Shown here: one piece after another, positions 6,481 to 42,984 of the stretch
Position numbering within the stretch: the first letter of the stretch is position 1
How the letters are laid out: every line of letters starts with the position of its first letter
NCBI GenBank assembly: GCA_029834535.1
Contig: JAQMWT010000143.1
Coordinates: 1 to 42,984 of the forward strand
DNA from: Chrysophaeum taylorii
Lineage: Eukaryota; Sar; Pelagophyceae; Pelagomonadales; Pelagomonadaceae
Length of the DNA stretch: 42,984 bases
Direction: 5' to 3'
Made by a program: the position numbers and the translations under genes
The notes under the pieces: model-generated
Told to the model about the DNA's origin: nothing
What the model saw: the letters and a program-made list of their open reading frames with translations, nothing else
The model's database searches: none

Positions 6481-6483
6481 TCA

Positions 6484-6492
6484 AGTAGGGGG
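6484..6492 (+). promoter_or_regulatory. Polypurine tract of the Gypsy-like element
   Basis: AGTAGGGGG directly upstream of the 3' LTR that starts at 6497. The same tract precedes the LTR at 29733 on the minus strand. It would prime plus-strand DNA synthesis. Confidence 0.7.
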
Positions 6493-6496
6493 CTTA

Positions 6497-7590: not shown

Positions 7591-8681
7591 GTCAAACGAT
7601 GGTGATAGCGTTAATTTACGCAAGTCATAGACAAGCTGACACAAATGTTTATAAATTATATGATATGTTCCAGCTGGAATAGCATTCGCGATTATATCAC
7701 AGCATAGGTCCGGGGACAAAGACAGAAGAAGATCTCATGCAAGCAAGTGGCTTTCTTGAATTAGTCAAGAATCCCAGGCGAAAGTTAGAAATGCCCTCCA
7801 TTTCTAACTTTCGTGGGATGTTCGACTGTTTTATTAGAGTGCAGACGAAGGAACAGCATAGTTAAGGTTTCAAGCTCAGTCACAGTTAAGCGCACGGATC
7901 CTGTACAACTGAAAGTGTTGTAGGTTTTAGGTGTGGAAATGAATGGTATGTCAGGAAAGACCTGCGTCCAAGGCTCGTCGACTATTAACTTGCGACTGAT
8001 GGAATTAGCTTGGTCTGCAATGTCCAGAAAGAAAGTGACTCGTTTATTAGGCCATGAAAGCAGATCAAGATGGCCGGTGTTATATTTACGTGCAACGAGG
8101 ATCCATCTTTCTCTGGCTTGATAATCTCCACACAGATAGCATGGAAATCGGTCACATATATCCACCGTATAGTGCATCGTTGAGAAGATGAGATTAGCAA
8201 CTCGTATATGGTCTTCATACGATGCGGAGTGTGGTGGTGTCATTTCCATGAAAAGAACGAGCGGCTTTAAAAGCTCAAGTACACTTAGAGCACTTGGAAA
8301 CAAGGAATCATCCATATCACGCTCGAAGGTGGAAATGGATCTCCCATTGATTATGTTGCGATTTGTGCATGGTGATGTCAATTACACTATATCGGTGTAA
8401 TATCGTGCACGTTCAACATCCGATGCTCGATGGAGATATGTCAGAAACTTAGGTAGGGATGGGACAACTTCGATGGAATTACCAAAACGTCTTCGTAGCA
8501 TGTGCGTGATATTGTCGTCGCTCTAAACAAGAACTTTAACGTTGATGTTGATTTGCAAGTCATTAGAAGCGCAAGCCAAGAATGCAGGAGTGGACATCCC
8601 AGAGCAAAGTAGAGTTACAGTAGGTGTTCGTGGGCTAGGAGATGAAGTTGCTGTATGAAGCAATCGTGTGGTAACTTTGCG
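7590..8681 (-). pseudogene. Retrotransposon cytosine-C5 DNA methyltransferase (copy L, broken)
   Basis: Would methylate cytosine C5 in DNA using S-adenosylmethionine. Motif I 'TLLCSGMSTPAF', motif II 'VLV-stop-SDDN' (Glu codon now TAG, 8523-8525), motif IV 'LTSPCTNRN' with the Pro-Cys pair (Glu just before it is TAA, 8382-8384), motif VI 'FMEMTPPH', motif VIII 'GDYQARERWILVARK', motif X 'IIANAIPAGTY'. Compared with copy R about 690 bp are missing near 7720-7760, which removes the target-recognition region and motif IX. The upstream PR ends in UGA (8682-8684) in the same frame as this domain. Not functional. Confidence 0.85.
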
Positions 8682-8684
8682 TCA
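8682..8684 (-). promoter_or_regulatory. In-frame UGA between PR and MTase (copy L)
   Basis: Codons read GTA-TGA-CGC-AAA. PR and MTase are in the same frame on either side, and the stop sits at the same place in copies R (34069-34071) and F2 (38679-38681), always followed by C. Candidate readthrough stop that would set the Gag-PR to full polyprotein ratio. Confidence 0.6.
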
Positions 8685-12403: not shown

Positions 12404-14244
12404 AAAGGTGAGGGTAGGAATGCCGGTCCTGGTGTGTGCGAGTGCCCGGGGCTATATATACCCCTGTGCTTCCCCATCATAGTTGCGGCGCAAGCGGTGG
12501 TGATTCGAACGCGCGATCCACCTCGAGCGCCAGCGGCCTAACTTCTTTATGGGAGCAAATGCCGGTCCTGGTGTGTGCGAGTGCCCGGGGTCAATGATAC
12601 TCCTGTGGTATCGAGAGAAAACCCCGGTAGATATGTGTGAAATGTTCCAGTGTCGCACGCCACATGCAGCCTCTGGGATACTTCCCACTGGCATCACGCC
12701 TCCGAGTAAAGCACGCCGCGCCTGCTGAATGCTGTTCATCGTCACCGTTCGCATAGATTGGTCTTTAGGAACGGCAACCGCGGTCGTGCTTGAGATCCGC
12801 CTTGTTTGTCATCTGGCTAAGTACGACTGGGTGAAGCCTTGTCGTCGATGAACCGTAATTGGTCGTGTCGCTTTGGCAACGTACCGCCATCTGTGGAAAG
12901 CGTTTGCTGAGGAACGAACCTGTTCAGGTGGCTCGTCGCTATCTAAGCTTGGATGGTGGCAGAGTTTTGAGCTGGATCCGCATCCTATCGTCACAGGTTT
13001 GTCGTCGTGGTCGTTATTGCAGTCCGCCTCATTTAGGATTCCTGTTCCGTCCATACCGGCTGGTTGCGAGATGGTCACGGTTATCTTGCCGTGAGTTTGT
13101 TGGACACCGTGTTCAGAAGCTGATGATCTCAACTTTATCGCGATTAACAGGCACATCTGCGTCGACGTAAAGTCGTTCGACGCACGATTTTCCCGGCTTC
13201 CTGATGTTCAGCAGGATGGAGCTGGGACACCACGGATAAATCTGTCAGTGCCCGGGAGGTTGCAAGCGACGTTAATGAGTGAAGCATGGCGCCGACACGT
13301 GGATGGCTCCGTTTTCTGGCTTTGTGGGCGTCACAAGTGACTGGTTCGCCAAAACGGAGGGCTCTATGGTGCCTTGATCAGGATGCGCCTGCGAACGACA
13401 CACTGGTGCGCGAAGGCAGTCCATGGCTGGCTGTCGGCTTGGATCCCAGTGCAAAGAGCAAACGGATGGTAATACTGGGCTAATGGCTTCCTTCAATGCG
13501 AACGTGTCGCAGATCTCGAAGGCGAATGACGGTGCCCTGTGTTTTCCTTGATGACGCTTTCCGCCAAGTTCCGCTGGTGTAAAGTGGCGACCAGTGATTT
13601 GGAACTGGATGCCAAGTTGCACTTGAGCGGTGAAGTTTGGGCGGAATGTCGATAATGCGTCTGATGATATCATCTCCACATGGTACATCAATTCGACTAC
13701 GATGCGACCACTGGAGACTCCTTCCTTGAAAGTCGTCCTAGTGTCTAGTTTTCGCAAGACATACCCATCAGGGTTTATACGCACTCGAAGCAAGTGCAAG
13801 CAAACCCACCATAAGCAATCACGATGCTCGGCGCGCCACCTGGGAGATGTTAATTGGCAGGCCGTCTGTCGCGACTCCAAGCGTTTCGCGAGCGAAACTG
13901 ACGTGGATCAGCGCTATGCAGTCGGGCAGTCCTGCAGATACCGACCACCACCTGGGCGCAAGTTGGTGACCACAGGATCGTGCGGCGAAGAACCTCGGGC
14001 TGGTGGTGGTGAATGAGCAGTCAGTACACCAAACTATCTAATACGCGATGAAAAATGTATTTGTGGAAGTGAGGCAGCGCAACGCCGGTGTGCTCGGGGG
14101 TGGCCTCTTGTCGACCTGACTTTGCAACGGTGGTTTCAAGCAGCTGTTTCGAGGTTTGTCGGTTAACGACTTGCGAATCGCAAGATGGTGAGTGTCCGCA
14201 ATGCACTGCTGGAGGAGGTGGCGTGGATGGTCTTCAACTGCTGG
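12404..14244 (-). other. Decayed 3' part of element M, no gene recognised
   Basis: Coding-like stretches on the minus strand (14262-14021, 13880-13272, 13156-12809, 12754-12452) should correspond to integrase and later pol by position. The first runs in frame from the MTase once the SINE-like repeat is left out, and has a His/Cys-containing start ('HLLQQCIADTHHLAIRK') at the place where a zinc-binding pre-integrase domain would be. I found no convincing RT motif. Two direct repeats of about 35 bp (ATGCCGGTCCTGGTGTGTGC...) start at about 12420 and 12558; the first leads into TATATATA near 12450. Confidence 0.35.
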
Positions 14245-14257
14245 GGCGGCCGGAGAT

Positions 14258-14629
14258 ACCAATCAACTAATAACTTCGACCTCTCCTGAGCATGGAGCCA
14301 GGCCGGACCGACAGGAGCCAGTCCGAATCACGGGCTGTAGACGAGGGGCGCCGAAAGGTGGGCTGGCGGGGGAGTGATCATCGCTTGTCGCCATGCGACG
14401 AGGAGACCGCGATGTATCGACAACCGACTCGTCGATAACCTTCCGTCTGCGCCCCCGGCCATACCCGTCCCGCTGCGAACGTTCCGGCTGCCAACCGGCC
14501 CGCCCGAGAGGCGAATAGGTGCCAACCTACGCCGGGAGGGCGGATGCCCTCGCAAGGCTCAGGATTCATGAGGCACCGTCCTCCATCGCAACCATGCGGT
14601 CGCCGATCAGGGTAAGGATAAGGCTGTAC
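14258..14629 (-). mobile_element. (GTTA)n-tailed SINE-like repeat, copy C
   Basis: 372 bp flanked by the 13-bp target duplication GGCGGCCGGAGAT (14245-14257, 14630-14642). On the minus strand it begins near CTTATCCTTACCCTGATCGC and ends in a degraded GTTA tail at 14258. Inserted just behind the MTase of element M; removing it and one duplication joins the MTase frame to the ORF at 14262-14038. Confidence 0.7.
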
Positions 14630-14656
14630 GGCGGCCGGAGATGTTGGAGAAAAGAA

Positions 14657-16570
14657 TTAGAAGAATTCCACCATCTGACAGATTTCTCTTAGGCTAGGAA
14701 TGCCATTGCGTAGGGCGCTCCATTCGATGTGAAGGTTCACGTGGTGATGCGAGGCATGATGTGCGAGGACAGCGCTGTATTTGGCCTGCAGCATGTTGTG
14801 CGGGACAGCGTTGGCCAGTGCCTTGAACGCGAAGAACGGCGGGTGCTGGCGGAACAAGCGGAGAAGCTCTGGTTCCGAATGGTGTCCAAATTTTGCGATT
14901 TCGTTGAGAGTCGCGTATCGGATGCGATTGGGGGAGACCAGCAGTAGTGCTCTCGAGTAACTCGTGTTGGTGGGGTACGAGCCAGTGACCGAGTAGCACT
15001 TGGTGCTTTTCTGGAGCGTGTCGCCGATATGGCCGACATAGTCCGCGTAAGTGGGACGTGCTTCGGACATTACGACACCCGTGGGGTCATCGAGAGTGAT
15101 TCGCCATCGCGAGTCGATCGCGGCAAAGCCGGGGTGCGAGCGATTCATGTAGTGGACCCACGTGGAGGGACGCGAGCAGCTGTGCGCGGAAGCCAAGGCG
15201 GTGGTGAAGGCCACGACCAGAAAAGCGGTGCCCTTGGGGACAGACAGGGAGAAGGCGTGTTGCGGCGAGAAAGCGGCTATTTGGTGGGAGCAATCCATGA
15301 TCTGGGGTGGGCGCGAATGGATCATGATAGAGGCGCGCGTGAAATAACCGCATGCAAGTTCGGTAGCGGCGGTGCCCGAGATGGGTGCATTCAGCTGGTA
15401 AGCACTTGTTGACTCGGAAGCGTGAAAGCAGCGAAGCGTGTTCCAGGAGGCGAGAGTGGGGTGTTGCAGCAAGTGGTTGTGTCGCAGTGTAAATACCAGG
15501 AGGCGCGGGATGGAAGTCATGGAGGCATAGGGGGTGCCGTCTGCGTCCAGTCCAAGATCCAGGAAGGGCTGCTTGAGGCGTGCGAGCAATCGGAAGATGC
15601 GTGCATTCTCGGAAATCGAGAGTTGAGCTGCATTGGCGGGTGTGTAGGAGAATATTGCTTTGTGCTGATAGTAATCCAAGGTTGAGCGGGTCACAGTGCC
15701 GCGAAGGGCGGGTGCGGGTATCCAGAGATCTTCGGGGATAGTGTGACTAGGATCCAAGAAGGGAACCATGCTCGGTGGGGATGTTAACCAGGAGGAAGCG
15801 GTTTTCTCGAGATAGTAGCCATCTAGCGGGTGCCAAGCGAAGACAGCGAGATAGCGGTGTTTGCTTATGGCGTTGCCGAAGGCTGAGGCGATGTAGACAC
15901 CGGAGTGTCGAAAGTAGCCCATACTTTGATGGTGTTTGGCGAGTTGCGTGTACTCGTGGTGAGTTTTCGGGTTTGGTGGGACGTTCTCGACAGTTGTGTA
16001 TGTCGGGAGCGTGCAACGAACAAAGCGGACTTGCTCTTCGACAAAAAAATCGGCAGTCGCTGGAGTTGCATAGCAATCATATTCCTTCATTACGCTGAGG
16101 TGTTGACAGGGCAGGGTGAAGACGGCCATGTCAAGTCGAGGCAGCCGTAGTTTGCCAGTTTGAAGAGCGGCAGTAAGTTGCCTGAGATCCCTATAGTGCT
16201 GGGCATCTGGGAACAATTTTTGTACGCGGGCGTGCATGGTTGGGTTAATTTCGCACGTGACGACGACAGTAATTCGCTTGTCGAAGCGTTTGCGAAAGGA
16301 AGTGAAGCCTTATTGGTGGAGTCCACCTGCGATAATGGCAGTGTGCAGCGGAGGGGGTTGTGTGAACACAGAGAGGTCCGCGGTGCCAGTGAGCGCATAT
16401 TCTAAATAAGGGCTCGGCAGTTTGAAAAATTCCGTCATAAAAGCAGAAAGGGCTTCCAGTTTGGCAAAATCGAGAAGATGGGACTGTGAGCGTGTTTTAG
16501 TGACTTTTTGCGTGATGTTTGCGATTTCGTCCTTGAGGGACATTTCGAGACGAGTGTGGAAGCTGACCAC
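14657..16570 (-). pseudogene. Retrotransposon cytosine-C5 DNA methyltransferase (element M)
   Basis: One frame of about 637 codons broken by a single TAA (16310-16312) inside motif I. Motif I about 'HTAIIAGGLHQ-stop-GF'; motif II 'VTCEINP'; motif IV 'TLPCQHLS' (Cys44 of the part after ATG 16237); motif VI 'VENVPP' (residues 83-88), the canonical E-N-V; motif VIII-like 'GNAISKHRYLAVF' (121-133); motif IX 'NRIRYATLNEIAKF'; motif X 'ALANAVPHNM' near residue 475. The C-terminal part aligns with the Copia-borne MTases around 'RIRHYSTRELARANNF' and 'IANAIPAGTY', so all four share descent. The long stretch between VIII and IX should hold the target-recognition region. Confidence 0.85.
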
Positions 16571-16812
16571 ATTGACGAATGCATGCCTAGGCCGAGATGG
16601 CAGCGACAGGGGCCCGTTAGTCTGTCTATGAGCGATAACTACAGCAGTGGTTTTTAGGGGTGTTTTGTTGTCATGAGGGTCTGAAGTGGAGTTTTTCGGG
16701 AGTTCATTTAAATATGGCTTGTGCGGCAGCGGCGGGTCCGTTGCCTGAACGTTGAGGGGTTTTTACTCGAATGTTGCTATAACCTGTAAACCTGGTCGGA
16801 AATGCGGGACGA

Positions 16813-17169
16813 CTAGGAAAACCAAATATAATGCTTAGCCAGTAGAACCTTTGGTGTCGTGTGAGGAGAGACCTGCAGCTTGCATATATAGAGGTTTTTT
16901 ACTATACCTGTAAAGTTGCTGGTGAGTTTGCCTCTTCCCATGCGGATTGTATGCTCGGGAATCCTGCGTATGGATTCTCGAACAAAATTTGTTGTAGTGC
17001 GAGTAAAACAAAATGAAGCACCGCCGTCAAGCAAAGAAAATTCGGTGCCGGGGCCGTTGCATCCGAGCAGGGAATGAGTCTTTTTGGAAAGCTTTCCTGC
17101 GGTGTATGCAGCGCATAAGAAATCTGCGACTTTGTTGGAAATTGTCGATGATGTGGGAAAATTTGTCAT
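16813..17169 (-). pseudogene. Retroviral-type aspartic protease (element M)
   Basis: 'FSLLDGGASFCFT' fits the L-L-D-[TS]-G-A-S active site, with Gly replacing Thr/Ser but the following Gly kept, unlike the D-[ST]-C-A form in the Copia copies. About 119 codons, ending in a stop at 16813, in a different frame from both Gag and MTase, so at least two frameshifts separate them. Confidence 0.6.
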
Positions 17170-19389
17170 CGCTAGGCTGGGTGCCTGATTTAATGTTGTT
17201 TGATTGGCGGCACAGGCGTCGTCGGCAACAGTTAGTGAAAAAGCCGGCTCTTATGAAGTGCACGTATATAATCTTGGTGGCGTTGTACGAACTCTTCGAT
17301 GGAGTCTTATTGATCTTCGATTTCGGGAACTTGATCATCGTCGTATAAGCCGAGGTGACAATGGTCATCATATAAACCGAGTTGGCCTTGGTCATCGTAT
17401 AACGAGCCGTCGTCGATGCGCCCTCATCAGCTTGATAATCCGGCGGTTGGTCGGATGAGTGGAGCTGAAGGAAGTCGGCGGAGTCGGTATCAGCCTCAGA
17501 TAGGATAATCTCGTCAGAGATGGTGGTGATAAGGTTGGCGAGCTTGGTCATGCGGTCAGGGTTGGAGGTGCGTTGCCGACCAGCTTAACTGAGGTTGCGG
17601 ATGTTCTGGAGCTTACGGCGAACATCACATAGTGGGACTTTGAGCCGTTGGTCAGGAGTGGACGGCTTGGGAGGGTGCGTTTGTGTGGGAAATGTGACCT
17701 TGCGGAGGTGCGGGTGTTCGCGTTTGTCAGGGGTGACAGGAGGAACACGGGGATTGGGCTTATGTTTGGTGGGGTGGTCTTGGGCTTGGGATTGTCATTA
17801 GTCGTAGTATGACGGTGAACGAGGATTTGGTGGCTTTTTGTTTTTCTTAGGGTGGCGGGTGATTTGTTTCTTGCGATAAGCGTGGAGGTGTTGGATGAGT
17901 GCGTTATCATCGTCTGGGTCGAGATTGGCTTCCGTGATAAAGGCGTCGACAAGGTCGGCGTCGTCCGGAGATGCGTCATCTGGATCAGGGGGTATGTCGT
18001 CTTCGGGAGGAGAAGCGTCATCGTCATCTTCGGTGAGGTAGAAACCAAGGCGGCGGGAAAGGAGGCGTGGGTTGTCTTTGTCTTTTGTCGGCAGACGACC
18101 GAAGTCGGTGACAATGCGGAGAGGCTTGAAGTTGAGGGAGTGGTGGGGCTTGAGGTGAGCCCAGAAGTTGCGCTCGAAGGTTGATATAACAGTGATGCGT
18201 GCAATAAGCTTGGGCAGATGGTGAATCGCAGCCTTATCTTCGTCGAGGAGCTGAGAGTCGTTTGGGGTGCGAAGACAATTAGCAAGACGGGCGAAGCCTT
18301 TGATGTGAGTTGGGGCGCGGGAGTCGAGTAGACTTGGGGGGTATTTGTAGCGAAGTGTCTTGTGAGTTTCGTCTTTGATCGTATCGTCGTCGAGTTGAAG
18401 AGAAGGATCGTCGGTGATTTGACGTAATTGCTGCTGGATATGCCGCAAGTAGTCTATATATTGCGATGGCTCGTGGATCTCCGGGTTGAACGACGTCTCC
18501 AGGTACGAACTAAAAGCGTAGTGAGCATGATGGACGTGGTTCTGGCCCGTGTGCTTGTCAAGAGCGAGACGAATTTGGTGTACGAATTCGAGGCCCATCG
18601 GATGAGAGGATCCGAGTTTGTCGATCTCGTCGTATGCGGGGTGTTTGACAGAGTCGCGACCGGCGTGCAGGAAGCGGCGAAATAGGGGGTGCACGTCTCG
18701 CGGAGGTACACGATGAAGTCGGCTTCTTTGTCCTTGAGGTGGGGTTGCGTGATAAGATAGAGCTTTCCTTTCGACGCATCGGTGGTGTCTTTGTCTTTGT
18801 CTTGGGGTTCTCGGAGTTTGGGCAGATATATATTGTCAAGGAAGTCTTTGCCGAACTTGCGGTAGACGCCCTGGTAATAGACTAAGCGTCCTTGGAAATC
18901 TTGGGTGTTGCCAGCAGTGGCATGGTGTTCGGGGCGTTTGTCGTATTCTTCGATGCAGTGGCTGAGGAGAGCGTCTGCTAGATCGTTAGATCCGCGTATG
19001 ACGGATTCCCACGTGTAGAAGCCTTGCAGGAAGTATTGAGTAATGCCAGTCTCGGGCATGAGATGTTCGACGAACAACTGCATGACGTGGTAAGAGAGCA
19101 TTTGGGGGGGGACTTGAGCGTCGTCCATGGACTTGACAACAGAGCTAGAGGGGTCTGAGAACGTGGTGGCCTTGCTCTTAGGGTCTTGTGGAGCCGTAGT
19201 GGGGGGAGCAGTCGCTGCTGCGACGGCGGGTGGTGGGGCGTTTTGGTTTCGCTGCATCTGGGCGGTAAACGCGTTGAATTGTGCAGTGAATTCTGCCCTT
19301 TGGCGATCTTCTTGGTCTTTCATTGCTTGGTCATGTTGGGTCTCCTTATTGGCCAACTCTTTTTGGAGGTCTTGATTGCTTACTGGCAT
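17027..19389 (-). pseudogene. Gag of element M (frameshifted)
   Basis: ATG 19389 follows the leader. The N-terminus is charged and coiled-coil-like ('NKETQHDQAMKDQEDRQRAE'), then an Ala/Pro/Thr-rich stretch, then a helical capsid-like region ('YIDYLRHIQQQLRQI'). An acidic segment ('TEDDDDASPPEDDIPPDPDD') precedes a Lys/Pro-rich part. The frame changes near 18690 (pieces 19389-18690 and 18694-17798). A later piece (17551-17027) follows 'LCDVRRKLQNIRNLS', possibly a ruined CCHC zinc knuckle. Structural protein by position and composition only. Confidence 0.55.
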
Positions 19390-22515: not shown

Positions 22516-23571
22516 CAAGTGCAGGCCAGTAAGTTCACCTAGTCCCAATCTCTAACCTCAGCAAGTTCACCTGTTTCTGTTAAGTTCACCTAGTCCCAAT
22601 CTCTAACCCCAGCAAATTCGGCGTAAACCCAATATCTAACCCCAGTAAGTTCGGCGTAAACTCACACCCACTCTCCTTTGAGCTCGTCGCTCTCACCCCC
22701 GCCAATCTAAGCTGCTTTGATCCGCACAGCTAACCTTTTAGTTTACTCTAAAAGCCCCAGTAAGTTCACACTTGGTCTGAGTAAGTTCACCTGGTCACTA
22801 AGTTCACCTAGTCCCAATCTCCAACCTCAGTAAGTTCACCTGGTTCCAGTAAGTTCACCTGGTCCCAGTAAGTTAACCTATAGTGCGCGTGTAGACGCCG
22901 GGAGGGGGCTTATCGGTATTGCGCAGCACGTGTGGGGTAGGGTGGAGTCGTCGACCCAGAAGAGGATATCCTCGGGGTTGCCGATCGACAGAGAGCCACG
23001 TAGAGCTGGACGTGGCAGAAGACGGGCTTCGCCAAGAGGACGCCGACATCGCGGGGCGTCTGGCCCTGGCTCTTGTTGATCGTTTGGCGTCGGCGGGCCT
23101 TAAGGGATGCAGGTTGGAGGAGCCTCGGTGACAACGACACGATCGATCATGTATCTGGTACCGTTGCAGTGGCCGTGCGACGGGTCGAGGTTGCGAAGAC
23201 TTTAAGCTCGCGATCAAAGTCAGCATGCCGTTGGTTGTCAAGGAGTTGAAAACTCGACTGTTAAGAGCGAGGCGTCGGCTTCCGACCCAACCTAGTCGGC
23301 CGAAAAGAACTCCGACGCCTCGTCTTCGGGAAAAAGGCCGCGGTCATGCGCGCGTTGTCAGCATCGACAACATCGTTTCGACGGGGCGTGAGAATGGCGC
23401 GCTGAAAGAGCCGCCGCGGGTCGTGGAAACAGTCTGCGAGGTCGCCGTAGACGGCTTGGAGGATCAATGCCTGAATGGCTCGCGCGCCTACCTGATCCTT
23501 ACCCCAAATCGAGGGACAGACAGACAGACAGACAAACAAACAGACAAACATCTGTCGATTAGTAGTTAGGA
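22516..23571 (-). mobile_element. Helitron-like element, copy 3 (1,056 bp)
   Basis: Minus-strand orientation. It begins TCCTAACTACTAATCGACAG at 23571 and ends CTGCACTTG at 22516. The flanks read ...GGCTACA and TCGGAACT..., again A^T with no duplication. It contains the microsatellite, the helicase fragment and the AGGTGAACTTACTGG-type array in the same order as copies 1 and 2. Confidence 0.8.
22880..23515 (-). pseudogene. Helitron/PIF1-family helicase C-terminal fragment (copy 3)
   Basis: 'LFQRAILTPRRNDVVDADN' and 'TINKSQGQTPRDVGVLLA' followed by 'PVFCHVQLYVALCR'. Same limits and same missing parts as in copy 1; frames are broken. Confidence 0.8.
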
Positions 23572-31223: not shown

Positions 31224-34071
31224 ATGCATCCGCACACAAGAAACCCCTCATTCTTATGTGTCGTGTCGAGCCTGTCTATCAATCCTCCAACCTACCTTGA
31301 TTAGGTCACTAAACCTTTCCTAAGAACAATGTCAAGACCAAACCAATATCCACTGCGGATATTTACAAACAAGAACAAACTCTAGTTGACAAACTCCACG
31401 AAGGTCTTCGCTTTCAGGACAATTCAACTAAGGTCAGTTTGCAACTTGAAATGCTTCGTAGGCACATGACATGCCCATACGCCGACGCGTTGTTTCTCCT
31501 TCGATTCGTATGATGCGTATACCCGGAATGCTCCGGAATACAATCAAATCATTGACAGCGAAGTTAATATCATCTTTTCTAGATGGAAAGCCGAAAAAGT
31601 TAATGAACTCCATCTTCCAGATGAAGATGCACTGCCAGATCACCTAAAGACTTAGCATGTTAACCATGCCCATCGACTATCAGCCGATGAACGTAATGAC
31701 CTTGAACGACTCTTCTTTCAAGAGTCTTTTAATATTGTTCGTCCTGAAATAAACGAGGATGTAAAACTTGTGCATGATCATTTAAACACACAATTTCCTA
31801 AATCAACTGTGTATGATTCGTCTCTAACCAATACATCCTTCTCAGTCTTTCTAATGCCGACTGGCATAAGTACTGCGAGACCTACGCGGGGTTCCTGTAC
31901 ACGTTCTTTAATTCGGAATCTCAAGATCGTCCCGCCCTCGCTATGTGGGCACAACTTAAAGAAATCTACGCATTAAACGCGCATCCAAACAAAACCAGAG
32001 CAATAATGTTATTGTCTTACTACTACTACGAAACTGTATCATGTACGGACGTTACTGAACTTAAATCACAATTCAATCGAATGTCCTTAAATGTTAATTG
32101 GTACGCTCATGTATTTGTTGAAAAACTTCTTGCTTTCAAACCCAGGCTAAGCAGCTAAATAAGGATGATGCCTCAATTCTGTTTAGTGACTCGATCATAG
32201 CCCTAAAGGCTCACGAGGAGATTTATCGCTTATATGCCAACCCATCAGACCATGAACGCTATTCACAATCTTTATTAGAGTGGTGCAAGCTATACGTGTC
32301 GCGCTCAGGGAACACCTCTACTCGTGATCCCGATGTTTAAAAGCTAGTGGACCCTACTGATGTTCGCCCGTTACTGGAGTTCCTATTAAAAATCTATAAT
32401 GAGACGAAGTTCTCAACGGACCGACGCCTGGATAAACCAGCATCCTGGATTCCCTACATTCCAGGTATTACGGCAACAAAGCCTCCTAAAGTACTGCTGA
32501 TGGACACTATTCAGCAGTCTCATGACTCCTTTAATAACACATATTCATTGTTAACTACAGTGGCTGGTGGCCCATCCGGTTTTAACGCTCGTAAACTGCG
32601 TAATGCTAAACATGAAGCGTCTACAATCTCACCTCGGGACACGTCATACTATCGTCCACCTTCAAATTATAATGTTAAATGCACTAGCTTCGATCGTCCT
32701 GTTTACTCACAGTCTACCGATCGCAACTCTCGCTCTAATATGTCATTCATGGATCGGGCTACCTAACAGGCCGACCGTCTTCGCCATCTGTTTGGCAAAC
32801 TACTGGACGCGAATCCTAATCCTTCTACCGATGCTAAAATGGTACAGGAAGAAATGAAGAGCCTACTAAGTACCCTTTGGACCACTGCGTCTCAAGCTTC
32901 CACGCAAACTCTTGATCCTGAGGAAGCCACTCAAGTGCACCTATACCTATCACGTGTCGATACGATGTCCAACACTATATCGAACTTCCTAGAGACCGAT
33001 AAATCGTCTCACATCGTAGAAGATAAGGATCAAGTTGATACATCTGCTCCTACAGCGCCCCCCAGTGATGCGGAGCAGAGGGGGACTGCTGAAACGGAAA
33101 AGATGTTTCATACCTTTCTCTCTATAAAAGATGAAGAAATCGACAACATTCCTCAACCATTGCTGCAGCATATAAATGCTAAAGCACAAAACGCTATTGT
33201 TCGTCGTCAAGCACAGGAAGCTCCTCATAAATCTGAGCCTTCTAATAATCAACACGACGGAGAGAACGAAGATGGCACAGAGCCCCCTAGGATCCTTCCA
33301 AAATTAGATAACGGTTTTACTCTAGTCGTTGTACCTTCCGAGCAAACGCAAAGCTTTATGACGCAGTATGTTTTTGGTCAAAGTTCAACCCATGCTTGTT
33401 ACGCAACTATGCTGAAGCTGTATAATGAGTACAACTTACCTTTAATGACCACACCTGGATACGCAGACACCTGTGCTTCACAACATGTCGTCAACTTTAA
33501 GCGTTATGCTGACCCAATGCACATCGTTAAATTGCCCGAATCCTTGTCGCCTGCCATCCAGACGGCTACGGACACTCAAAGCATCACCCACGCAATGATC
33601 ATAAGAACTGTTATTCCCGCTCTCCCAAAGCATCCTAACGTTGGCTACGTCAAGCTCGATGTTGCACTCTTCCTACCTAAGCAGAATCAACACAACGATC
33701 CCGATTTGCACATCATAAGCATGACCCAGTGGGGAGAAGATAAACTTGGTATACATCTTTATGGGGTTGAATTTAAAGGACAGTCAGCCATTCAGAGCAA
33801 GATTGATGACAACGTCAAAATTACTCTGTTTAGATTAAACAACCTCTTACCCACGCTTCCGATCTACTCGCTACAGCAAGCTAAAGCGCGAAAGATGGAG
33901 CTTCGCTCTTTACAGTTTAAATTGAGTGCTTTCAACGAGCAACGTGAGATGTTAAAACTCCACTCCAAACTACTAGAACGTATAATCTACGTCCCGTGGC
34001 TTAAAACCATTTTGGAGTCCATGCACTCACAGTTGACCTATGTTCGCAAGCATTTCTCGCCCCCTATATGA
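31224..34071 (+). pseudogene. Gag-protease polyprotein (copy R)
   Basis: Same protein as in copy L. Main open piece 32839-34071 (410 codons). Protease 'YADTCASQHVVNF' with Asp210 of that piece, D-T-C-A-S again. The Gag part is broken by TAA at 32338-32340 (Leu in copy L) and at 32764-32766 (Tyr in copy L), and by lost or gained bases near 31230 and 32130. Pro/Glu/Ser-rich stretch before PR ('APPSDAEQRGTAETEK'). Ends 'KHFSPPI' then UGA-CGC. Confidence 0.8.
34069..34071 (+). promoter_or_regulatory. In-frame UGA between PR and MTase (copy R)
   Basis: Codons ATA-TGA-CGC-AAA. The frame before and after is the same; same position as in copies L and F2. Confidence 0.6.
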
Positions 34072-35923
34072 CGCAAATTTAACCCAAGTTTGCTTCATAC
34101 CATAACATCCAACTCCAGCTCACGCGTACCCACTGTAACACTGCTCTGTTCTGGGTTGTCTACTCCTGCATTCTTGGCTTGCGCTACCAATGACTTGCGT
34201 ATCAACATTAACGTTAAAGTTCTTGTTGAGAGCGATGAAAATCTCACGCATATGCTTCGAAGACGGTTTGGCAACTCTATTGAAGTGTTCCCGTCCCTTC
34301 CAAAGTTTCTAACCTATCTGCATCGTGCATCAGACGCAGAACGTGCTCGATACTACTCTGACATTGTGGAATTGACTTCCCCATGCACTAATCGCAACAT
34401 AATTAACGGAAGAGCTATCTCAACTTTCGAGCGAGATATGGATGACTCCCTATTTTCAAGCGCGTTAAGTGAGCTCGAACTCTTAAAGCCCCTTGTTCCT
34501 TTCTATGGAGATGACACCACCACACTCTGCATCCTATGAAGATCACATGCGGGTTGCCAATCTGGTCTTCTCTACAATGCATTATACAGTGGACGTTTGC
34601 GATCGCTTTCCTTGTTACTTGTGTGGAGACTACCAAGCATGGGGAAGGTGGATCCTGGTAGCCCGCAAATATAATACTGGTCCGCTAGACTTGCTTTCCT
34701 GGCCTAACAAGAGAGTCACTTCCTTCCTGGATATTGCGGACCACGCTAACACCACAAGTCGAAAGTTAATTGTCGATGAACCATGGACACAAGTCTTCTC
34801 TGATGTACCATATGTTTCCATACCTAAAACGTACAGCACCTTCAGTCGCACGGGGTCCGTTCGTCTAACTGTAACCGAGCTTGAAACGTTAACCATGTTG
34901 TTTCTCCGGTTACATTCTTATAAAACGACAGAGCACCCTTCTCAAGATGAAATTGATGGCATCTCTAATTTTCGCTTGGGATTCTTAACGAATTCAAGGA
35001 AGCCCCTTACATGTGTGACTTCGCCCATTGAACTCAAGGCGTTTGTCATCCTCTATAATATCATGGGACGCTTGCTCCCCAACTCAACCACTTTACCTGT
35101 GTCTTTTCGTATTACGACCATCGAATCTAACCAACCATCTCACAGGTTATTTCTAAATAAATCTTCTAGCTCTTCCATCATCTACATCACAGGCGGAAGA
35201 CATACAGGTGGAGATATCACCGTCACCAACCCTTCCTCTAAATACCAGGCACACATTAACGCATTTGGTGAAACTTACACTTTCCAAACGCATGAAACAG
35301 GAATTGATAAAACCGCTACTCTCGATTCTGTGACTGGCTTTCTTTGGTTGTGCCAAGCTTACCACCACCATAATGAAACCCGAGACACCCGTCGCCTCGT
35401 GCAAACACTTGTCTCATACACTTCACCTGTGCTTCAGGATTCTTTCATTTTCTACTCCAAGTCCAACCACCTTGAATTTGTCGACAGAATTTTTGCTTTA
35501 AGTGACATGCATTTGTCTCAAAGCAGGTACCTTGGCTTCATTACTTCTAGTGATAGAAAGATGGGCGCTAAAGTTCATTCTATCCACACACCAACTCCAA
35601 CTATTCGTGGGTACGCTAACATGCTCATCTACGATCCACGACTTGATCGCATCCGACACTACTCAACTCGAGAATTGGCACGCGCCAATAACTTCACAGC
35701 ACACCAGACTAATTTTCTGTTGTCCTTGTCCCCTGATCTTTGTTGTGACATGATCGCTAATGCTATCCCGGCTGGGACTTATCACGTACTGTATACACAT
35801 TTGTGTCAGCTTGTTTATGACTTACGTAAATTAACTTTATCACCATCTTTCGACCCCGATCATGCTTCACTAACCAAAAACTATAGGTCGACCTTTTTCA
35901 CTAACATATTTCAAACTGATTCA
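34072..35923 (+). pseudogene. Retrotransposon cytosine-C5 DNA methyltransferase (copy R)
   Basis: The most complete Copia-borne copy. Residues from ATG 34090: motif I 'TLLCSGLSTPAF' (17-28), II 'VLVESDEN' (44-51), IV 'DIVELTSPCTNRN' with Cys99. An extra T near 34503 shifts the frame. The second piece then has VI 'MEMTPPH', VIII 'GDYQAWGRWILVARK' (R-x-R damaged to W-G-R; copies L and F2 have R-E-R), a long target-recognition-like region, IX 'RIRHYSTRELARANNF' and X 'DMIANAIPAGTY'. Starts in frame behind the UGA of PR. The tail after motif X ('LTKNYRSTF') leads to the integrase spacer and is cut by Helitron copy 2. Confidence 0.88.
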
Positions 35924-36966
35924 TCCTTACTACTAATCGACAGATGTTTGTCTGTCCGTTTGTTTGTCTTTAAATGTCGACTGCTAAGAGGGCCCCGATT
36001 CAGGGTAAGGATCAGGTAGGCGCGCGAGCCAGACAGTGATCCCTCCAAGCCGTCTACGGCGACCTCGCAGACTGTTTCCACGACCCGCGGCGGCTCTTTC
36101 GGCGCGCCATTCTCACGCCCCGTCGAAACGATGTTTGTCGATGCTGACAACGCGCGCATGACCGCGGCCTTTTTTTCCCGGAGACGAGGCGTCGGAGTTC
36201 TTTTCGGCCGACTAGGTTGGGTCGGAAGACGACGCCTCGCTCTTTACAGTCGAGTTTTCAACTCCCTGACAACCAACGGCATGCTGACTTTGATCGCGAG
36301 CTTAAAGTCTTCGCAACCTCGAACCGTCGCACGGCCACTGCAACGGTACCAGATACATGATTGATCGTGTCTTTGTCACCGAGGCTCCTCCAACCTGTAT
36401 CCCTTAAGCCCCGCCTACGCCAAACGATCAACAAGAGCCAGGGCCAGACGCCCCGCGAGGTCCGCGTCCTCTTGCCCACAAGCCCGTCTTCTGTCACGTC
36501 CAGCTCTACGTGGCTCTCTGTCGATCGGCAACCCCGAGAAGATGCTCTTCTGAGTCGACGACTCCACCCTACCCCACACGTGCTGCGCAATACCGATAAG
36601 CCCCCTCCCGGCGTCTACACGCGCACTTAGGTGAACTTACTGGGACCAGGTGAACTTACTGGGGTTTGAGATTGGGACTAGGTGAATATAGTGACCAGGT
36701 GAACTTACTGGGGCCAGGTGAACTCACTGGGGGTTTTAGAGTAAACTCAAAGGTTAGCGGCGTGTGCGGATCAAAGTAGCTTAGATTGGCGGAGGCGAGA
36801 GCGACGAGCTCGAAGGAGTGGTGTGAGCACGAGCGGGCTTACGCCGAACTTACTGGGGTTAGAGATTTGGACTAGGTGAACTTACTGACCAGGTGAACCT
36901 ACTGGGACCAGGTGAACTTACTAGGGCTAGAGATTGGGACTAGGTGAACTTACTGGCCTGCACTTG
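35924..36966 (+). mobile_element. Helitron-like element, copy 2 (1,043 bp)
   Basis: Starts TCCTTACTACTAATCGACAG, ends CTGCACTTG. Flanks ...GATTCA and TCTCTACAA... rejoin to the uninterrupted frame seen in copy L, so the insertion was exactly A^T without duplication. Contains the microsatellite, the helicase fragment (about 35990-36630) and the AGGTGAACTTACTGG-type array. Confidence 0.82.
35990..36630 (+). pseudogene. Helitron/PIF1-family helicase C-terminal fragment (copy 2)
   Basis: 'RAILTPRRNDV' and 'TINKSQGQTPREVRVLLP' are recognisable; the last block is frameshifted compared with copies 1 and 3. Same captured segment. Confidence 0.78.
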
Positions 36967-37210
36967 TCTCTACAACTAAACCAGAGTTCTATCACAATGT
37001 TATATATTTCAACTAAAATATTCAAATGTTGTGACAGCTTATCATCTACTCACGAATTTCCTTTGTTCAATGTAGATTCTGTAGCACATGTCTTCATGTC
37101 TAACATCCCACCCTTAGATGAACCATCGCCTTCTAAATCGAATCCTAAACACATCCCTCTAATAACCCCAAGACATTTGCACGAGAAACATGCTTCTTTT
37201 GACAGAAAAG
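36967..37210 (+). pseudogene. MTase-integrase spacer of copy R, truncated
   Basis: 'LNQSSITMLYIST' to 'HIPLITPRHLHEKHASFDRK' aligns with copy L ('HQSSITMFYISNK', 'LHEKHAPFDKK'). In copy L the zinc-binding part of the integrase follows; here the sequence stops at the SINE-like repeat. Confidence 0.7.
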
Positions 37211-37461
37211 TACTAACTAACTTAACTTCAGACCTCTCCCGAGCATGGGAGCCAGGCCGGACCGACAGGCGCCAGTCCGGAATCACGGGCCTGTAGACGA
37301 GGGGCGCCGAAAGGTGGGTCGGCGGAGAGTGATCATCAAGCTTGTCGCCATGCGACGAGGAGACCGCGATGTGACTGACAACCAACTCGTCGATAACCTT
37401 CCGTCTGCGCCCCGCGGCCATACCCCGTCCTACTGCGAACGTTCCGGCTGCCAACCGGCCC
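37211..37461 (-). mobile_element. (GTTA)n-tailed SINE-like repeat, copy D (5' truncated)
   Basis: Tail on the left (TACTAACTAACTTAACTTC, i.e. GTTAGTTAGTA on the minus strand); breaks off at the CCGGCTGCCAACCGGCC block on the right. No target duplication, and the flanks belong to two different Copia families, so it marks a rearrangement breakpoint. Confidence 0.65.
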
Positions 37462-38681
37462 ACACAACAGAATATCAACAAGTTATTTGAGACTCTATTA
37501 CAATCAGCTGACATTCTGTCAACGACATATACTGCGGACAACAGTAGTTTACTTAGTCTAAACGAACAGCTCATGTTTGCAGAAGACATCATTTATGATG
37601 TAGACGTTCATCTATCCTCGACCGAAAAGTCGTTAAACTACGTGGAGCCACAACACCATACTGTTGTTACTGCTCCCACCCCAAAGGCAACTCCTCCTAC
37701 TACAAACACACAGGGTAATCCTTCCAATACTGTGCCTAACCTCTTTACCGCTTCCGCCATCTCGGCTTTACCACCAGCATTATTGTCCTCGTAATCTTCA
37801 CAGCCCAATCTGCCGTCAACACACCATCACAAGCCGAAACCAAAAGGGATGCCGATCATACTTCGCTATCGTCATTTGATGAAAGGCACGGCATGGCTGA
37901 TGAGGCTGACGAACCATCACCACCTGTTCAACCGATTATTATTCCAACGAACCTGTTATTGCTGAAGAACTTCTTCACAGCCAGCCTCTCCACTACTTGC
38001 CCACATTCGGAAAACGCCTTCCTCACCAACTACATGAAGGTAAACAGTGTCCCTCCACATTGCTCTTTTCTATATTTTGACTCATGTGCTACCATCTCAT
38101 TGATGTCCACTTACGATTTTGCAATACCCAATCATATAATTCCATTGGATTCCAAATATGCGCCGATTGTTATTCAGACGGCTACAGGACAACAACGGGC
38201 ATCACACATGATGTTAACACTTAACATTGTTGTTCCCCTACCAGATCAGCCACAAGTTGGCTATGTTAAGATCGACTTCGCTTTATGTCTTCAGCCAGTG
38301 CATGACCGACATCTCGCTATCCTGAGCATGCTCGAGTGGAACCAGACGAACCTGACCACTGTGTTCAATGATCGAGCTGAGCCAAAGCTCAGCGCTGTCA
38401 CGAGCCGCATAGACAAAGATGTACGTATACCCATACACTATGTAGCAGCTAATTTATCTGCGGTCCCTTGTCTCACTTACAACATCGCGCGCGACAAGCA
38501 GCTCGAACTTCGTTCTCTCGCATTTCCCCTCAAGCGATACCATGAAAACAGGGATCTACTGGCATACTACAACTACCTACTCCAAAGAGTTTTACCAGAT
38601 CGCCCGTGGATTCGCCCTTTGGTTCTCAATCTTCGGAAACAGAACAAATTTGTTCAGCAAAATACGCAGCCATTAACTTGA
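37462..38681 (+). pseudogene. Gag C-terminus and aspartic protease (F2)
   Basis: Gag end: 'INKLFETLLQSADILST' to 'LLSLNEQLMFAEDIIYDVD', equivalent to the region before PR in copies L/R; a stop and a frame change lie near 37793-37893. Protease in the open piece 37893-38681: 'YFDSCATISLMSTYDF' with Asp63, so D-S-C-A. Then 'KQLELRSLAFPLKRYHENRD', matching 'RKMELRSLQFKL' of copy R. Ends ACT-TGA-CTA. Confidence 0.75.
38679..38681 (+). promoter_or_regulatory. In-frame UGA-CUA between PR and MTase (F2)
   Basis: TGA followed by CTA, the strongest known leaky stop context (UGA-CUA) in eukaryotic and viral readthrough. The frame continues openly into the MTase. Confidence 0.65.
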
Positions 38682-40774
38682 CTACTTTCACGCCCAGTGT
38701 TTCTCTCACAAGAGTCCAATCTCCGCAAACCCTCTGTCATGTTACTTTGTTCTGGTTTGTCAACTCCGGCGTTCCAGTCTCAAGCCACTAATGACTTAGG
38801 CTTAAATATCAAAGTAAAAGTTGTTGTTGAGTCTGATGATACGCTTGTTCGTATGTTACGCCACCGTTTTCCTACTGTATTTTTATTTGAATCTTTCCTC
38901 GCCTTTATTAACCACCTTCACCTAATCTCACCAGAGGAAAGGCGCACATTCTATTGTGATATAATTGAGATCACTCCTCCCTGCACAAACAGGAATTTAC
39001 TAAAACAGCATAAGACAGAAGACTTACACAGCCTGCTGGACGACTCTCTTTTCGACAGCATGTTGTCTATCATCAAGCTACTCCAGCCCTTGGTACTACT
39101 GGCTGAGATGACGCCTCCGCATAAGTACTGTCATCAAGACCACATCACAGTGGCCAACCTTATCCATACTACACTTGATTACTGTGTCGATGTTGTTGAT
39201 AGGTTCCCGACCTACCTCTGTGGCGACTACCAATCTAGAGAAAGATGGATATGCATCGCACGCAGATATTCTACTGGACCAATTAAACTATTGTCGTGGC
39301 CCATCCTCCATCCACGCCCCTTCCTAAAGATCGTGGATGATCTACAAGCTATTCCCAAGCGGCTTTGGCTACCTAAACACGTATCCAAAGACTGGATCCG
39401 GGTGTTCCCCGATCCTCCATATATCCCGCTCCTAAAACGTTTGCACCTTACTCTCGCACAGGTTCTGCTCAGCTTACTATGGCTGACCTTGCGACTCTCA
39501 ATATGTTACTGCTTCGCCTTCACTCACAACAGGCTCACGAACAACGTACTCACTCTGTTCAATCCGAGTGTACTTATCATCAGTTGTGCTTTAAACGCTC
39601 CTCTATGGAGCCACTACCCAATGCAACACATCCTATACAAGTCAAGATTTTTACAATCCTCTATAACTTGTCTGCCAGCTTACACACTAACTCACCCACT
39701 CCTGTGTCCTATTACATAACCGTTTTCGAAACTAACCGACCGTCACACAGGTTATTACTTACAACCTCATCAACATCACACAACTCCTACTTCTTAACTG
39801 GTGGCCACCATTCCGACGGCAACCTCACCATAGAGGACGCCACCACCAAACATCAAACTCCCATCAACGCCTTTGGAAGCACGTATACGTTCACTGCTTC
39901 CGACATCCCCCGCGACCGGGACAGGTCCATATATTTGGAGCCGTTTATGGGTTACTTGTGGATCGATGGTGCCTCATGAATCCTGAGCCTTGCGAGGGCA
40001 TCCGCCCTCCCGGCGTAGGTTGGCACCTAGTCGCCTCCCGGGCGGGCCGGTTGGCAGCCGGAACGTTCGCAGTGGGACGGGGTATGGCCGGGAGGCGAAG
40101 ACGGAAGGTTATCGACGAGTTGGTTGTCAGTCACATCGCGGTCTCCTCGTCGCATGGCGACAAGCTTGATGGTCACTCTCCGCCGACCGACCTTTCGGCG
40201 CTCCTCGTCTACAGGCCCGTGATTCCGGACTGGCTCCTGTCGGTCCGGCCTGGCTCCCATGCTCGGGAGAGGTCTGAAGTTAGTTAGTTAGTTAGTCCAA
40301 GCCCTTCCCCAAGTTGGCTCCGCTGCCACCTATGGCACCGCCATACAAAAACTCTTGTCCATATGCTCTCTTGTGATGCCTGGCTGCCTTACCTACAAGG
40401 CCACCGACAACTCTTTCGATTACAAGGATTCTCATTTTGCTCTGGAAGATCACCACTTATCTCATAGTCGCTATATAGGGTATCTTCGTGGAAGTGACCG
40501 CAAACTCGGCTCTAAAATCCACTCCATGCTTGCCCCATTGCCAACCGTCCGAGGGTATGCCAATATTATTTTACTTGACCCTCGCAACGGAAAATTACGC
40601 TACCCCACTCGACCGGAGTTGATTCGTGCTAACAACCACACCAAACAACAGGAATCCTTCCTATTGTCTCTACGCCATGACCTTTGCTGTGACATGCTCA
40701 GCAATGCTCTGCCTGCCGGTACGTACAGCACTCTGTACAAGCACCTTTCGCTCCTCGTTGCCGATATTAATTAA
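38682..40774 (+). pseudogene. Retrotransposon cytosine-C5 DNA methyltransferase (F2)
   Basis: From ATG 38697: motif I 'MLLCSGLSTPAF' (15-26), II 'VVVESDD' (42-48), IV 'IIEITPPCTNRN' with Cys96, VI 'AEMTPPH' (136-142), VIII 'GDYQSRERWICIAR' (176-189), all intact. A one-base loss near 39435 shifts the frame; the next piece (39479-39970) is the target-recognition-like region. SINE-like copy B (about 39966-40297) splits it. After it come motif IX 'KLRYPTRPELIRANN' and X 'MLSNALPAGTY'. A TAA at 40772-40774 follows in a frame that stays open behind it. Confidence 0.87.
39966..40297 (+). mobile_element. (GTTA)n-tailed SINE-like repeat, copy B
   Basis: Nearly full length (starts at GATGGTGCCTCATGAATCC, lacking the first about 40 bp of copy A), ends GAAGTTAGTTAGTTAGTTAG. 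Inserted in the F2 MTase; host sequence on either side aligns with 'FLW' and 'QA' of copy R. No clear target duplication. Confidence 0.68.
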
Positions 40775-42120
40775 ATCCCCATGTTGGACCCTACCTTCCA
40801 ACATACTGCTGCAGTGACTAAGAAATCCTATGTATCCAACTTCAGGACCATTAATCAAGCTTCCACCACGTGCAGCACAGATACCTTGTCTTTAGCACAA
40901 GCTTTTTTGATGTCTATTTCCAGCAACTGCTTGACCGAAATGTCGTTAAACTATATATCTTCGTCCTACGAAGATACTCGTTGCTCGTGATGATGAGGAT
41001 GCACCTCCAAGTGACCCTACTGCGCACCAGGATGACGACGCACCGCCTTCCCCTGCCTTAGACACCGAACTCAAGTTCGATGTTCGGCGCAAACGGCACA
41101 TTCCCGCTCATCCCATTCCTCGTAAGTCCTCGCACACGGATCCACCGAATATCTCAATGCCAAAGAACGTGCCAATCGCTTTCACCGGGTGCATCACTGC
41201 CCCGACAACGTCGCTGCCAAGGCCCCCAACGTACTTGCTCGCCCTGGATTCTCTGCTTCTGACATACCATATCGCGACTTATGCACCGACTGCATCGCAC
41301 ACAACAAGCGCCACCCGCACAAGCATTTCAATGCGACCAAGCCTTCTTTGAGCAAACTCACAAAGCCGGCGAAGTCTGGGCGCGCCACGGCGTCTATGTG
41401 ACCATCCCATCCGAATGGGGAGGCTTCACATATCATCGTCTTCAAGGAACTCATTTCGAAATTTCTCTTGGTGTACTTTACACGCACCACCAACGCCACG
41501 GAGTTCACTCAAGCTCTGGATTTTGTGTATGACTTCTGTCGTACACAACTCAACGTGCACATGCGCACCCTCTACTCCGATGCATTCAAGCCCTACTTTA
41601 GTCAGCACATTACCTCCCGTACCGCGTCGACAAGGGCATTCAACTCATTGCCTTCCCGCCGTACATGCACCACTTTAACTTTGAAGTTGAGTCTGCCATC
41701 GGCTTCATCGCCTCCGCCTCCTCAACTCGCCTTCGTTCTCTCCTTAATGCTCACTATCGTGGCGCCAAGATCGTGGAACCAGCTATCATGTTCCCATGGG
41801 CGGTGATACACCGTTCAAAGCTACAACCCTCCCGAACGCCACGCTCGAGCGCATTCATCCTGCTATTCTGAGTCCGCAACAGCTACTCTACAACCAACTC
41901 AGCACTCCCAACACGATATGCTCAAGATTTTTGGCGCTGAATGTTACCTCCTATTGGAGCCCCATGAACACCACAAGTGGGAACCGTGCCGCCGCAAATA
42001 TCCTATCTCTGTTGCGCCAACGCGCAAAACCCGCTCGTCTCCCCACGCGTCGACCATCTCGCTGACGTCCTCAACCCTGAAAACGGACAAATTCGTGTTT
42101 CGTCCAAGCTGCAATTCCTC
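40775..42120 (+). pseudogene. Copia integrase (F2), multiply frameshifted
   Basis: Zinc-binding part 'FHRVHHCPDN' and 'LCTDCIAHNKRHPH' keeps H-H-C-C. Core: 'GEVWARHGVYV' (the first Asp position is His here; copy L has Asp), 'LYSDAFKPYFSQH' (second Asp), then in another frame 'FNFEVESAIGF' (Glu). Afterwards 'PWAVIH' and 'FGAECYLLLEPHEHHKWEP'. Changes of frame near 41400, 41620, 41810 and 41950. Dead copy; domain order as in copy L. Confidence 0.75.
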
Positions 42121-42984
42121 TACATGTTGCAGCATCCTACTCCTGATCCTGAACTAGCTCCTCCGCCTTATGCTCCTCCCGCGCCTTTCTCGCTCGCACC
42201 CCACACCGCTATCCAAGACCATGTCATTCAGAGGGGGACATTGACTCCTCATCCTCAGAGGGGGCACTCCCCACCTCTTTCACCTCCTTCTTCGTCCCCT
42301 ACTCCTGCCTCTTCTCCTCTTCTAACACTCTCGCCGACGATTCTGGCTCTATGTCACCGCCGCCCTTGCTTCCTTCTTACAAAGACCTTTTTGCACAAGA
42401 TGACCTCATTCTTGTCCCAGGTTCCAAACAGCCTAACACCCGCAAGGCCACTTCTATGAAAACTATCCGAGCCCGGTTACAAGCGTCTACTATTGGTGCT
42501 TACAAAGCCGCTGGTGGCAAGCTCGCCGATTTCCGCTGGGATCTTCGCCACCACTTTCTTACGTTCAAGTCTCCTTATCGTAGCAATACGTAACTGAACG
42601 ATCTCCGTGGTGGTATCCTCTGGTCTGCTATCTGCTCAGAGGGGAACATGCGTTGTTAGCTCGTCTTCTTCTCCCGTTGCGCACACTTGCCGCTACCCGC
42701 ACGTCGATGGTTACTTCGCCCACGCCAAGTGCGCATCCAGCATCCCAGCTGCAACCTTTTTAACTGCTGATGGTTCACCTGCGTGCCCTATTCCTCAGCC
42801 CCTTTTATCTGCGTTCACTGAACACGCTGCTGCCTTCGGCACTTCTTCCTTACAATATGCACTTACGTACCTGGCGCCGACCAGCTTTATTGATCACAAC
42901 TCCTCCGAGTTTGGCGCTACTTCTGCATCTCTGGCTGACTTGGAGGAATACCTTCTGGTCTCTACAGAGCTCATCACCCAGGTC
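42121..42984 (+). pseudogene. Integrase-RT linker (F2), runs off the window
   Basis: Pro/Ser-rich, then 'PSYKDLFAQDD' and 'IGAYKAAGGKLADFRWDL' (42351-42593), matching 'PSYRSLYSQD' and 'VAAYKQAGGALADFKYDL' of copy L. The last bases code 'ASLADLEEYLLVSTEL', like 'PHLSAIEDYITVQSRY' in copy L, which lies about 90 codons before RT. The window ends there. Confidence 0.7.

Follow-up and report, generated by a model that had tools for sequence, protein, structure and literature searches.

A cytosine-C5 DNA methyltransferase domain in the Pol polyprotein of Copia retrotransposons from the pelagophyte Chrysophaeum taylorii

DNA methyltransferases (DNMTs) carried by retrotransposons are described in PMC5890265 from long interspersed nuclear elements (LINEs) and DIRS elements of Symbiodinium and from a Gypsy element of Klebsormidium; both DIRS enzymes give CG methylation in yeast, and the Copia elements of Symbiodinium are reported there without any DNMT. 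PMC12344493 mentions DNMT3 members in long terminal repeat (LTR) Copia and in DIRS elements, citing PMC5890265, whose LTR case is Gypsy. The passages of PMC9998398 and PMC12477816 consulted make no mention of a DNMT in Copia, and no DNMT-bearing Copia element is described in the literature found by title and beginning of the abstract, a coverage outside which most subscription papers and preprints lie. Here, we analyze a stretch of 42,984 nucleotides from Chrysophaeum taylorii (contig JAQMWT010000143.1, assembly GCA_029834535.1; hereafter, the window), in which an earlier note, made from the sequence alone, had placed a cytosine-C5 methyltransferase (C5-MTase) between the protease and integrase of a Copia polyprotein at positions 34072–35923, naming retrotransposon DNMTs of dinoflagellates and charophytes as precedents. 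Those are the right host lineages, although the elements concerned are LINE, DIRS and Gypsy, and none is Copia. As far as these partial sources reach, DNMTs in LINE, DIRS and Gypsy elements are known and a Copia element with a DNMT is new; from its sequence features, a C5-MTase domain is almost certainly part of the Copia Pol polyprotein in this organism.

The evidence for this architecture comes from other copies in the same 70.8-Mb genome, the open frames of which were read unaltered. A single frame of 1,691 amino acids (aa; copy L039) encompasses the DNMT, an HHCC stretch, the integrase and the reverse transcriptase (RT; Pfam RVT_2, E = 7.7e-42), and another of 1,952 aa (L043), from the lineage denoted B, contains a protease-like stretch (LIDGGAS), the DNMT, the integrase and the RT (RVT_2, E = 1.6e-38). 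In L040, a 960-aa Gag-protease frame is followed by a UGA and then by a frame of 1,154 aa that contains the DNMT and the integrase, and two copies of lineage A2, L047 (1,676 aa) and L048 (1,177 aa), join the second part of the DNMT to integrase and RT in one frame each. Thus, the order proposed in the earlier note, with the C5-MTase between protease and integrase, is seen in uninterrupted frames elsewhere in the genome; the search for intact copies returned stop-free frames such as those of 1,691 and 1,952 aa, and the domain recurs in other copies, the opposite of the absence that had been named as contrary evidence. The lack of stops was not equated with intactness, given that the translation of L044, a lineage B copy without stops, slips out of place over part of its length. 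Also rejected was a subfamily with a common frameshift near residue 253, composed of copies matching query residues 1–345: the DNA alignment shows indels that differ from copy to copy, and the apparent grouping is an effect of the query. The RT is of the RVT_2 type and the order integrase, RT, RNase H is that of Ty1/Copia, with the integrase profile rve itself remaining below the cut-off (E = 0.004–0.008) and RNase H recognized by similarity and reading rather than by Pfam. The ends of L043 are 88.6% alike over 167 bp, consistent with LTRs; no LTR pair was found for lineage A in the sequence stretches examined.

The copy at 34072, assigned to lineage A2, encodes its DNMT on the plus strand in two open reading frames (34072–35890). 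All seven motifs quoted in the earlier note occur in the claimed order on this strand within 34144–35776, where a motif scan places the starts of motif I at 34144, II at 34219, IV (TSPCTNRN) at 34375, VI (MEMTPPH) at 34508, VIII at 34622, IX at 35669 and X at 35759. A frame break separates motifs IV and VI: motifs I, II and IV (34072–34494, +) belong to the frame 34072–34539, and motifs VI and VIII, the target-recognition region and motifs IX and X (34505–35890, +) to the frame 34487–36019. Motif VIII stands at its place in the order but is degenerate, reading QAWGR instead of QxRxR. The protease does lie upstream, as had been claimed: tblastn with the Gag-protease of L040 matches 31340–34068 (+), a decayed lineage A2 Gag-protease part with an open frame at 32767–34068, and an in-frame UGA (34069–34071, +) marks the junction with the DNMT frame. 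The active-site-like motif of this protease is DTCAS (33466–33480), that of A1 copies is DSCAT and that of lineage B is LIDGGAS; Copia proteases have Gly where the lineage A motif has Cys. The claimed continuation into an integrase failed for this copy. Polyprotein similarity ends at 35935, where an inserted sequence with a repeat of ~1 kb (35936–36966, strand not assigned) terminates the copy, a remnant of ~80 residues resumes at 36967–37212 (+), and the integrase farther to the right is part of a second copy, of lineage A1, at 37465–42984. The copy at 34072 is thus a fossil: its frame is broken once, its motif VIII has degenerated and it is severed ahead of the integrase.

The Pfam DNA_methylase (PF00145) search proposed in the earlier note yielded no match at E up to 1 for either frame of this copy; the best lineage A copies in the window reached E = 0.083 to 0.26, below the cut-off, which the L039 and L047 frames did not exceed either. 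Among matches of the lineage A model in Foldseek, oxidoreductases and a channel come out on top, DNMT1 ranks 10th, and none of the four matches at E of 1e-3 or below is an MTase. These results would suit another Rossmann-fold domain bearing the motifs by chance, a reading that we regard as scarcely credible and as largely refuted. Lineage B exceeds the Pfam cut-off (1.5e-6 and 1.1e-7), and lineages A and B match one another by profile (E = 1.1e-7). Two outside relatives, the protein fragments P0001 and P0002, are 41% and 39% identical over ~70% of the query; the former falls just short of the cut-off of 22 bits (4e-4, 20.2 bits) and the latter surpasses it (6e-5, 23.0 bits). The copy at 34072 is accepted as a DNMT because of this confirmation through its relatives, not through a profile match of its own. 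In a VIA ranking, the best structural matches of a weak model are DNMT1, MET1, DIM2 and M.HaeIII, and motifs I, IV (Pro-Cys), VI (Glu), VIII (QxRxR), IX and X occur in order, motif VIII being weaker in lineage B (ISKxRY); a chance origin would have to account for IX and X as well. The catalytic Pro-Cys, Glu and QxRxR are retained in four aligned full-length A1 copies. Lineage A departs from the usual form in motif I (CSGLST) and in motif VI, which reads EMT in place of the ENV of C5-MTases. The domain measures ~550–590 aa, and ~300 aa separate motifs VIII and IX, between which DNA target recognition is located in C5-MTases. A composite one-frame pattern of motifs I, IV, VI and VIII matched twice in the window, in the A1 copy (38742–39245, stop-free) and in copy L (8612–8106, two stops), and in none of 200 first-order Markov windows; the copy at 34072 is unable to match it because its motifs sit in two frames. 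The AlphaFold model of lineage B (predicted local distance difference test score 34) was not used, and an NCBIfam search gave nothing of use.

The DNMT loci, at least 307 in the genome, fall into three lineages: A1, with at least 142 distinct loci (two merged searches), A2, with at least 92 scored (using the second part of the domain as query), and B, with at least 73 scored, all being lower bounds in that the best candidates only were scored. Stop-free frames across nearly the whole query occur at 31 loci, namely 17 of the 74 scored A1 candidates (at least 585 of 589 residues) and 14 of lineage B (at least 598 of 600 residues). Of the best 150 RVT_2 loci (of 1,670 candidates), 71 have a DNMT listed upstream, one of them added by hand after fetching. 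Five RT loci sampled from the other 79 all carry one upstream (two A1, two A2, one B); with C483 and C344, the domain was thus present at all seven Copia RT loci that were retrieved before anything had pointed to it. No Copia element without a DNMT was seen among the minority of loci examined. Of the 57 genome-wide PF00145 matches on the list (123 of 474 candidates scored), not one lies on any of the 233 listed lineage A loci, and the lineage A copies that were scanned individually are likewise below the cut-off. The finding suggests that surveys based on Pfam DNA_methylase can miss such enzymes.

Identity between A1 and A2 is 65% in the RT, 60% in the integrase, 51–54% in the catalytic half of the DNMT, 45% in its target-recognition region and 35% in the protease; between A and B it is 36–38% in the RT, 26–28% in the integrase, 21% in the DNMT and ~25% in the protease (short alignments). 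That the DNMT is inserted at the same point in A and B would be in line with a single, old capture. The host genome has a DNMT5-like gene (L002, G000:C621; open frame of 2,086 aa), which matches 7r76 (E = 3e-143; entry named Rad8), presumably the Cryptococcus DNMT5, and, by motif reading, a DNMT2-like gene (L001). An origin of the element domain from either gene was considered and found to be without support (hhalign probability 11.5 and 1.7). The host genome also gave 84 light-harvesting matches; one of these proteins has its closest solved relative in 9ygv, a giant kelp FCP, and another in 9vfj, which points to a chlorophyll-c alga, probably an ochrophyte. Beyond P0001 and P0002, the searches returned no relatives elsewhere for lineage B or for the whole polyprotein, and none in viral contigs or prokaryote genomes.

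In lineage A1, the DNMT comes after an in-frame UGA that is conserved among copies. Of 35 distinct places searched by pattern (36 rows, one of which, L009, is the window itself), 30 have it 19 codons ahead of motif I; in L015, L025 and L038 the triplet can still be made out, followed by a small deletion, and in L030 it is changed to a sense codon. In the copy at 34072, the UGA lies 22 codons ahead of motif I. The usual stop context, UGA CUA, is a readthrough motif of plant viruses, and stop-codon suppression is known from the Copia element SIRE1; no RNA structure stands out after the UGA in four sequences. The lineage A DNMT probably reaches particles with Pol by UGA readthrough, with reinitiation being possible instead where an AUG comes after the UGA. 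In the lineage B copy L043, the Gag frame and the protease-DNMT-Pol frame overlap by ~37 bases (2597–2633), with no such overlap in L044; a frameshift may take the place of the UGA there.

As a whole, the elements are best explained, with the balance moderately in favor, as Ty1/Copia with a Pol-borne C5-MTase that is packaged and acts on new element DNA. Under this explanation, Gag-protease would be the main product of lineage A and readthrough would yield Gag-protease-DNMT-integrase-RT-RNase H, whereas the Pol product of lineage B would arise by a change of frame ahead of the protease. The protease would free the DNMT, which would be packaged alongside RT and integrase and methylate newly made element DNA within the particle or the preintegration complex, and the methylation could mark this DNA as host-like or, until it is integrated, protect it against restriction or deamination. 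The identity of the domain is well supported, and the function is proposed by analogy; that self-methylation of new element DNA is the main role seems plausible on these grounds, if slightly short of an even chance.

In the few pairs measured, the DNMT is under purifying selection. The ratio of nonsynonymous to synonymous substitution rates (dN/dS), calculated from open frames only, which favors low values, and from pairs with common history, is 0.12 to 0.28 for four full-length A1 DNMTs (six pairs); over the first 253 DNMT residues of 11 copies, it varies between 0 and 0.49 in 54 pairs, with 0.12 as the median. For L039/L040, it is 0.13 in the DNMT and 0.18 in the RT; for L039/L041, 0.28 in the DNMT and 0.13 in the integrase; and for L047/L048, 0.10 in the target-recognition region, 0.06 in the integrase and 0.07 in the RT. 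Medians of 0.51 (residues 253–420, 11 copies, 55 pairs) and 0.38 (residues 0–420) were given no weight because indels or deletions had thrown several of the frames out of register, and a protease value of 0.025 (69 codons, dS near 1) was set aside as too short. Values of 0.10–0.28 in the open-frame pairs, and the persistence of the domain in lineages with DNMTs just 21% identical, make it very improbable that the DNMT is a captured passenger without selected function that is merely costly to remove from the polyprotein, even though many copies with broken DNMT frames coexist.

Lasting CpG methylation is expected to leave CpG transitions, and the footprint here is small. Among 329 A1 pairs at least 90% alike, C/T differences affect 5.7% of CpG, 3.9% of CHG and 5.3% of CHH sites; over 3 kb (326 pairs), the values are 7.2%, 4.6% and 5.9%, and in six B pairs 10.8%, 6.0% and 9.5%. 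The observed/expected CpG ratio is 0.81–0.97 in A elements and 1.02–1.13 in B. With so little CpG excess, CpG decay was rejected as proof of methylation; the small footprint counts against CpG marking that is both strong and lasting, and favors a target that is transient, outside CpG or in RNA, or else slow deamination. It is also what one would expect of a C5-MTase by descent whose substrate is RNA (the tRNA primer or genomic RNA) or of a noncatalytic, nucleic acid-binding part of Pol, a competing reading that we deem unlikely but serious and that the unusual forms of motifs I and VI in lineage A would fit; the Pro-Cys, Glu and QxRxR that all four aligned full-length A1 copies retain, and the ~300 aa at the place of DNA target recognition in the family, argue the other way. 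This reading draws further weight from SymbioLINE-Dnmt and KnitGypsy-Dnmt3, for which no activity was observed in yeast (PMC5890265), a result termed inconclusive there, and from the RNA methylation proposed in it for the LINE case. An enzyme directed at the host, whether at chromatin near insertions, at competing elements or at the disturbance of host silencing, is improbable: the DNMT5-like and DNMT2-like genes mean that a 5-methylcytosine system may exist to interfere with, and hundreds of element copies could yield much enzyme, but the position after a probable readthrough stop in Pol would favor low-level packaging, and the elements, to which this comparison was confined, show little CpG footprint. 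Returning to self-methylation, a more specific version, offered tentatively and on balance doubtful, would be a C5-MTase lineage peculiar to retrotransposons and so divergent that the standard profile misses it, which was fixed in the Copia polyprotein of this algal lineage after one ancient capture predating the A/B split, the target-recognition regions of which diverge faster than the RT (A1 vs. A2), and which provides family-specific self-marking inside the particle without stable genomic CpG marks.

Several other copies lie within the window. The second, A1 copy comprises a Gag-protease part with the DSCAT motif (37465–38678, +), an in-frame UGA in the UGA CUA context (38679–38681, +), DNMT motifs I–VIII with part of the target-recognition region (38682–39964, +), an inserted repeat (39965–40291, strand not assigned), the remainder of the DNMT with motifs IX and X (40292–40774, +), and a frame-broken integrase region with the segment ahead of the RT (40900–42984, +), the contig end cutting the copy before the RT; its DNMT has a frameshift near residue 253 that is absent from most other copies. 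Copy L, of lineage A2, occupies 1301–11210 on the minus strand, with Gag-protease at 11210–8993, DNMT at 8630–7669, an integrase split by an insertion at 6828–4399, RT at 2828–1910 and RNase H at 2077–1301. The RT and RNase H attributed to it in the earlier note are present, and of the motifs said to be the same, I (LLCSGMSTPAF), IV, VI, VIII and X were recovered, whereas neither motif IX nor the greater part of the target-recognition region could be located; two in-frame stops fall between motifs I and VIII. A lineage B copy (13080–18855, −) consists of Gag (18855–17238), protease and linker (17271 to ~16361), DNMT (~16360–14648, with the Pfam DNA_methylase match of 1.5e-6 on 16309–14660) and integrase remnants (14328–13080). 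On the minus strand at 26162–23531, there are weak matches to the DNMT profile (E = 5e-7) and the target-recognition region (E = 1.8e-5) of lineage B (small set; tblastn, 8e-9), perhaps an old and decayed third DNMT-bearing element; a Pfam scan of this segment detected no DNMT. A repeat of ~240 bp recurs at 10748–10949, 37212–37461 and 40044–40286 (piecewise 94–100% alike), the last copy within the A1 DNMT, and the ~1-kb repeat at 4678–5572, 22769–23473 and 36042–36975 (mostly 90–99% alike piecewise) sits where two A2 copies are interrupted and contains GGTGAACTTACTGGG-like short repeats.

If this interpretation is correct, Copia joins the retrotransposon classes that acquired a DNA methyltransferase, and its uptake there suggests a general benefit of a DNMT to elements that make DNA copies. 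The DNMT-Copia is no oddity of a few copies, and, with stop-free, near-full frames at 31 loci, it can be tested what a mobile element would gain from methylating DNA. The elements resemble Ty1/Copia (Pseudoviridae) in the RVT_2 RT, the integrase ahead of it, the HHCC stretch and the RNase H after the RT, and differ in the extra C5-MTase of ~550–590 aa between protease and integrase, the DTCAS/DSCAT protease motif of lineage A and the UGA after the protease. With the eukaryotic DNMT1, CMT, DNMT5 and DNMT2 and the bacterial C5-MTases, the domain shares the motif order and, to judge from the weak model, perhaps the fold of the catalytic half, but it is very divergent, the lineage A copies scanned falling under the Pfam cut-off. 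Like KnitGypsy-Dnmt3 of Klebsormidium nitens (PMC5890265), this is an element of an LTR retrotransposon class with the DNMT within the Pol polyprotein; KnitGypsy, however, has Gypsy machinery and a Dnmt3-related enzyme. As in SymbioDIRS-Dnmt3 and SymbioLINE-Dnmt of Symbiodinium, a C5-MTase lies in the coding region of a retrotransposon present in hundreds of copies and is under purifying selection, and in SymbioDIRS, the enzyme of which is active on CG in yeast, the DNMT is likewise inside Pol (PMC5890265). Unlike those elements, the present ones have Copia machinery, with an RVT_2-type RT and the integrase upstream of it, and not that of LINE, DIRS or Gypsy; and whereas DNMT-less relatives coexist with the Symbiodinium elements (PMC5890265), here all seven RT loci that were fetched with no earlier hint of a DNMT carry one.
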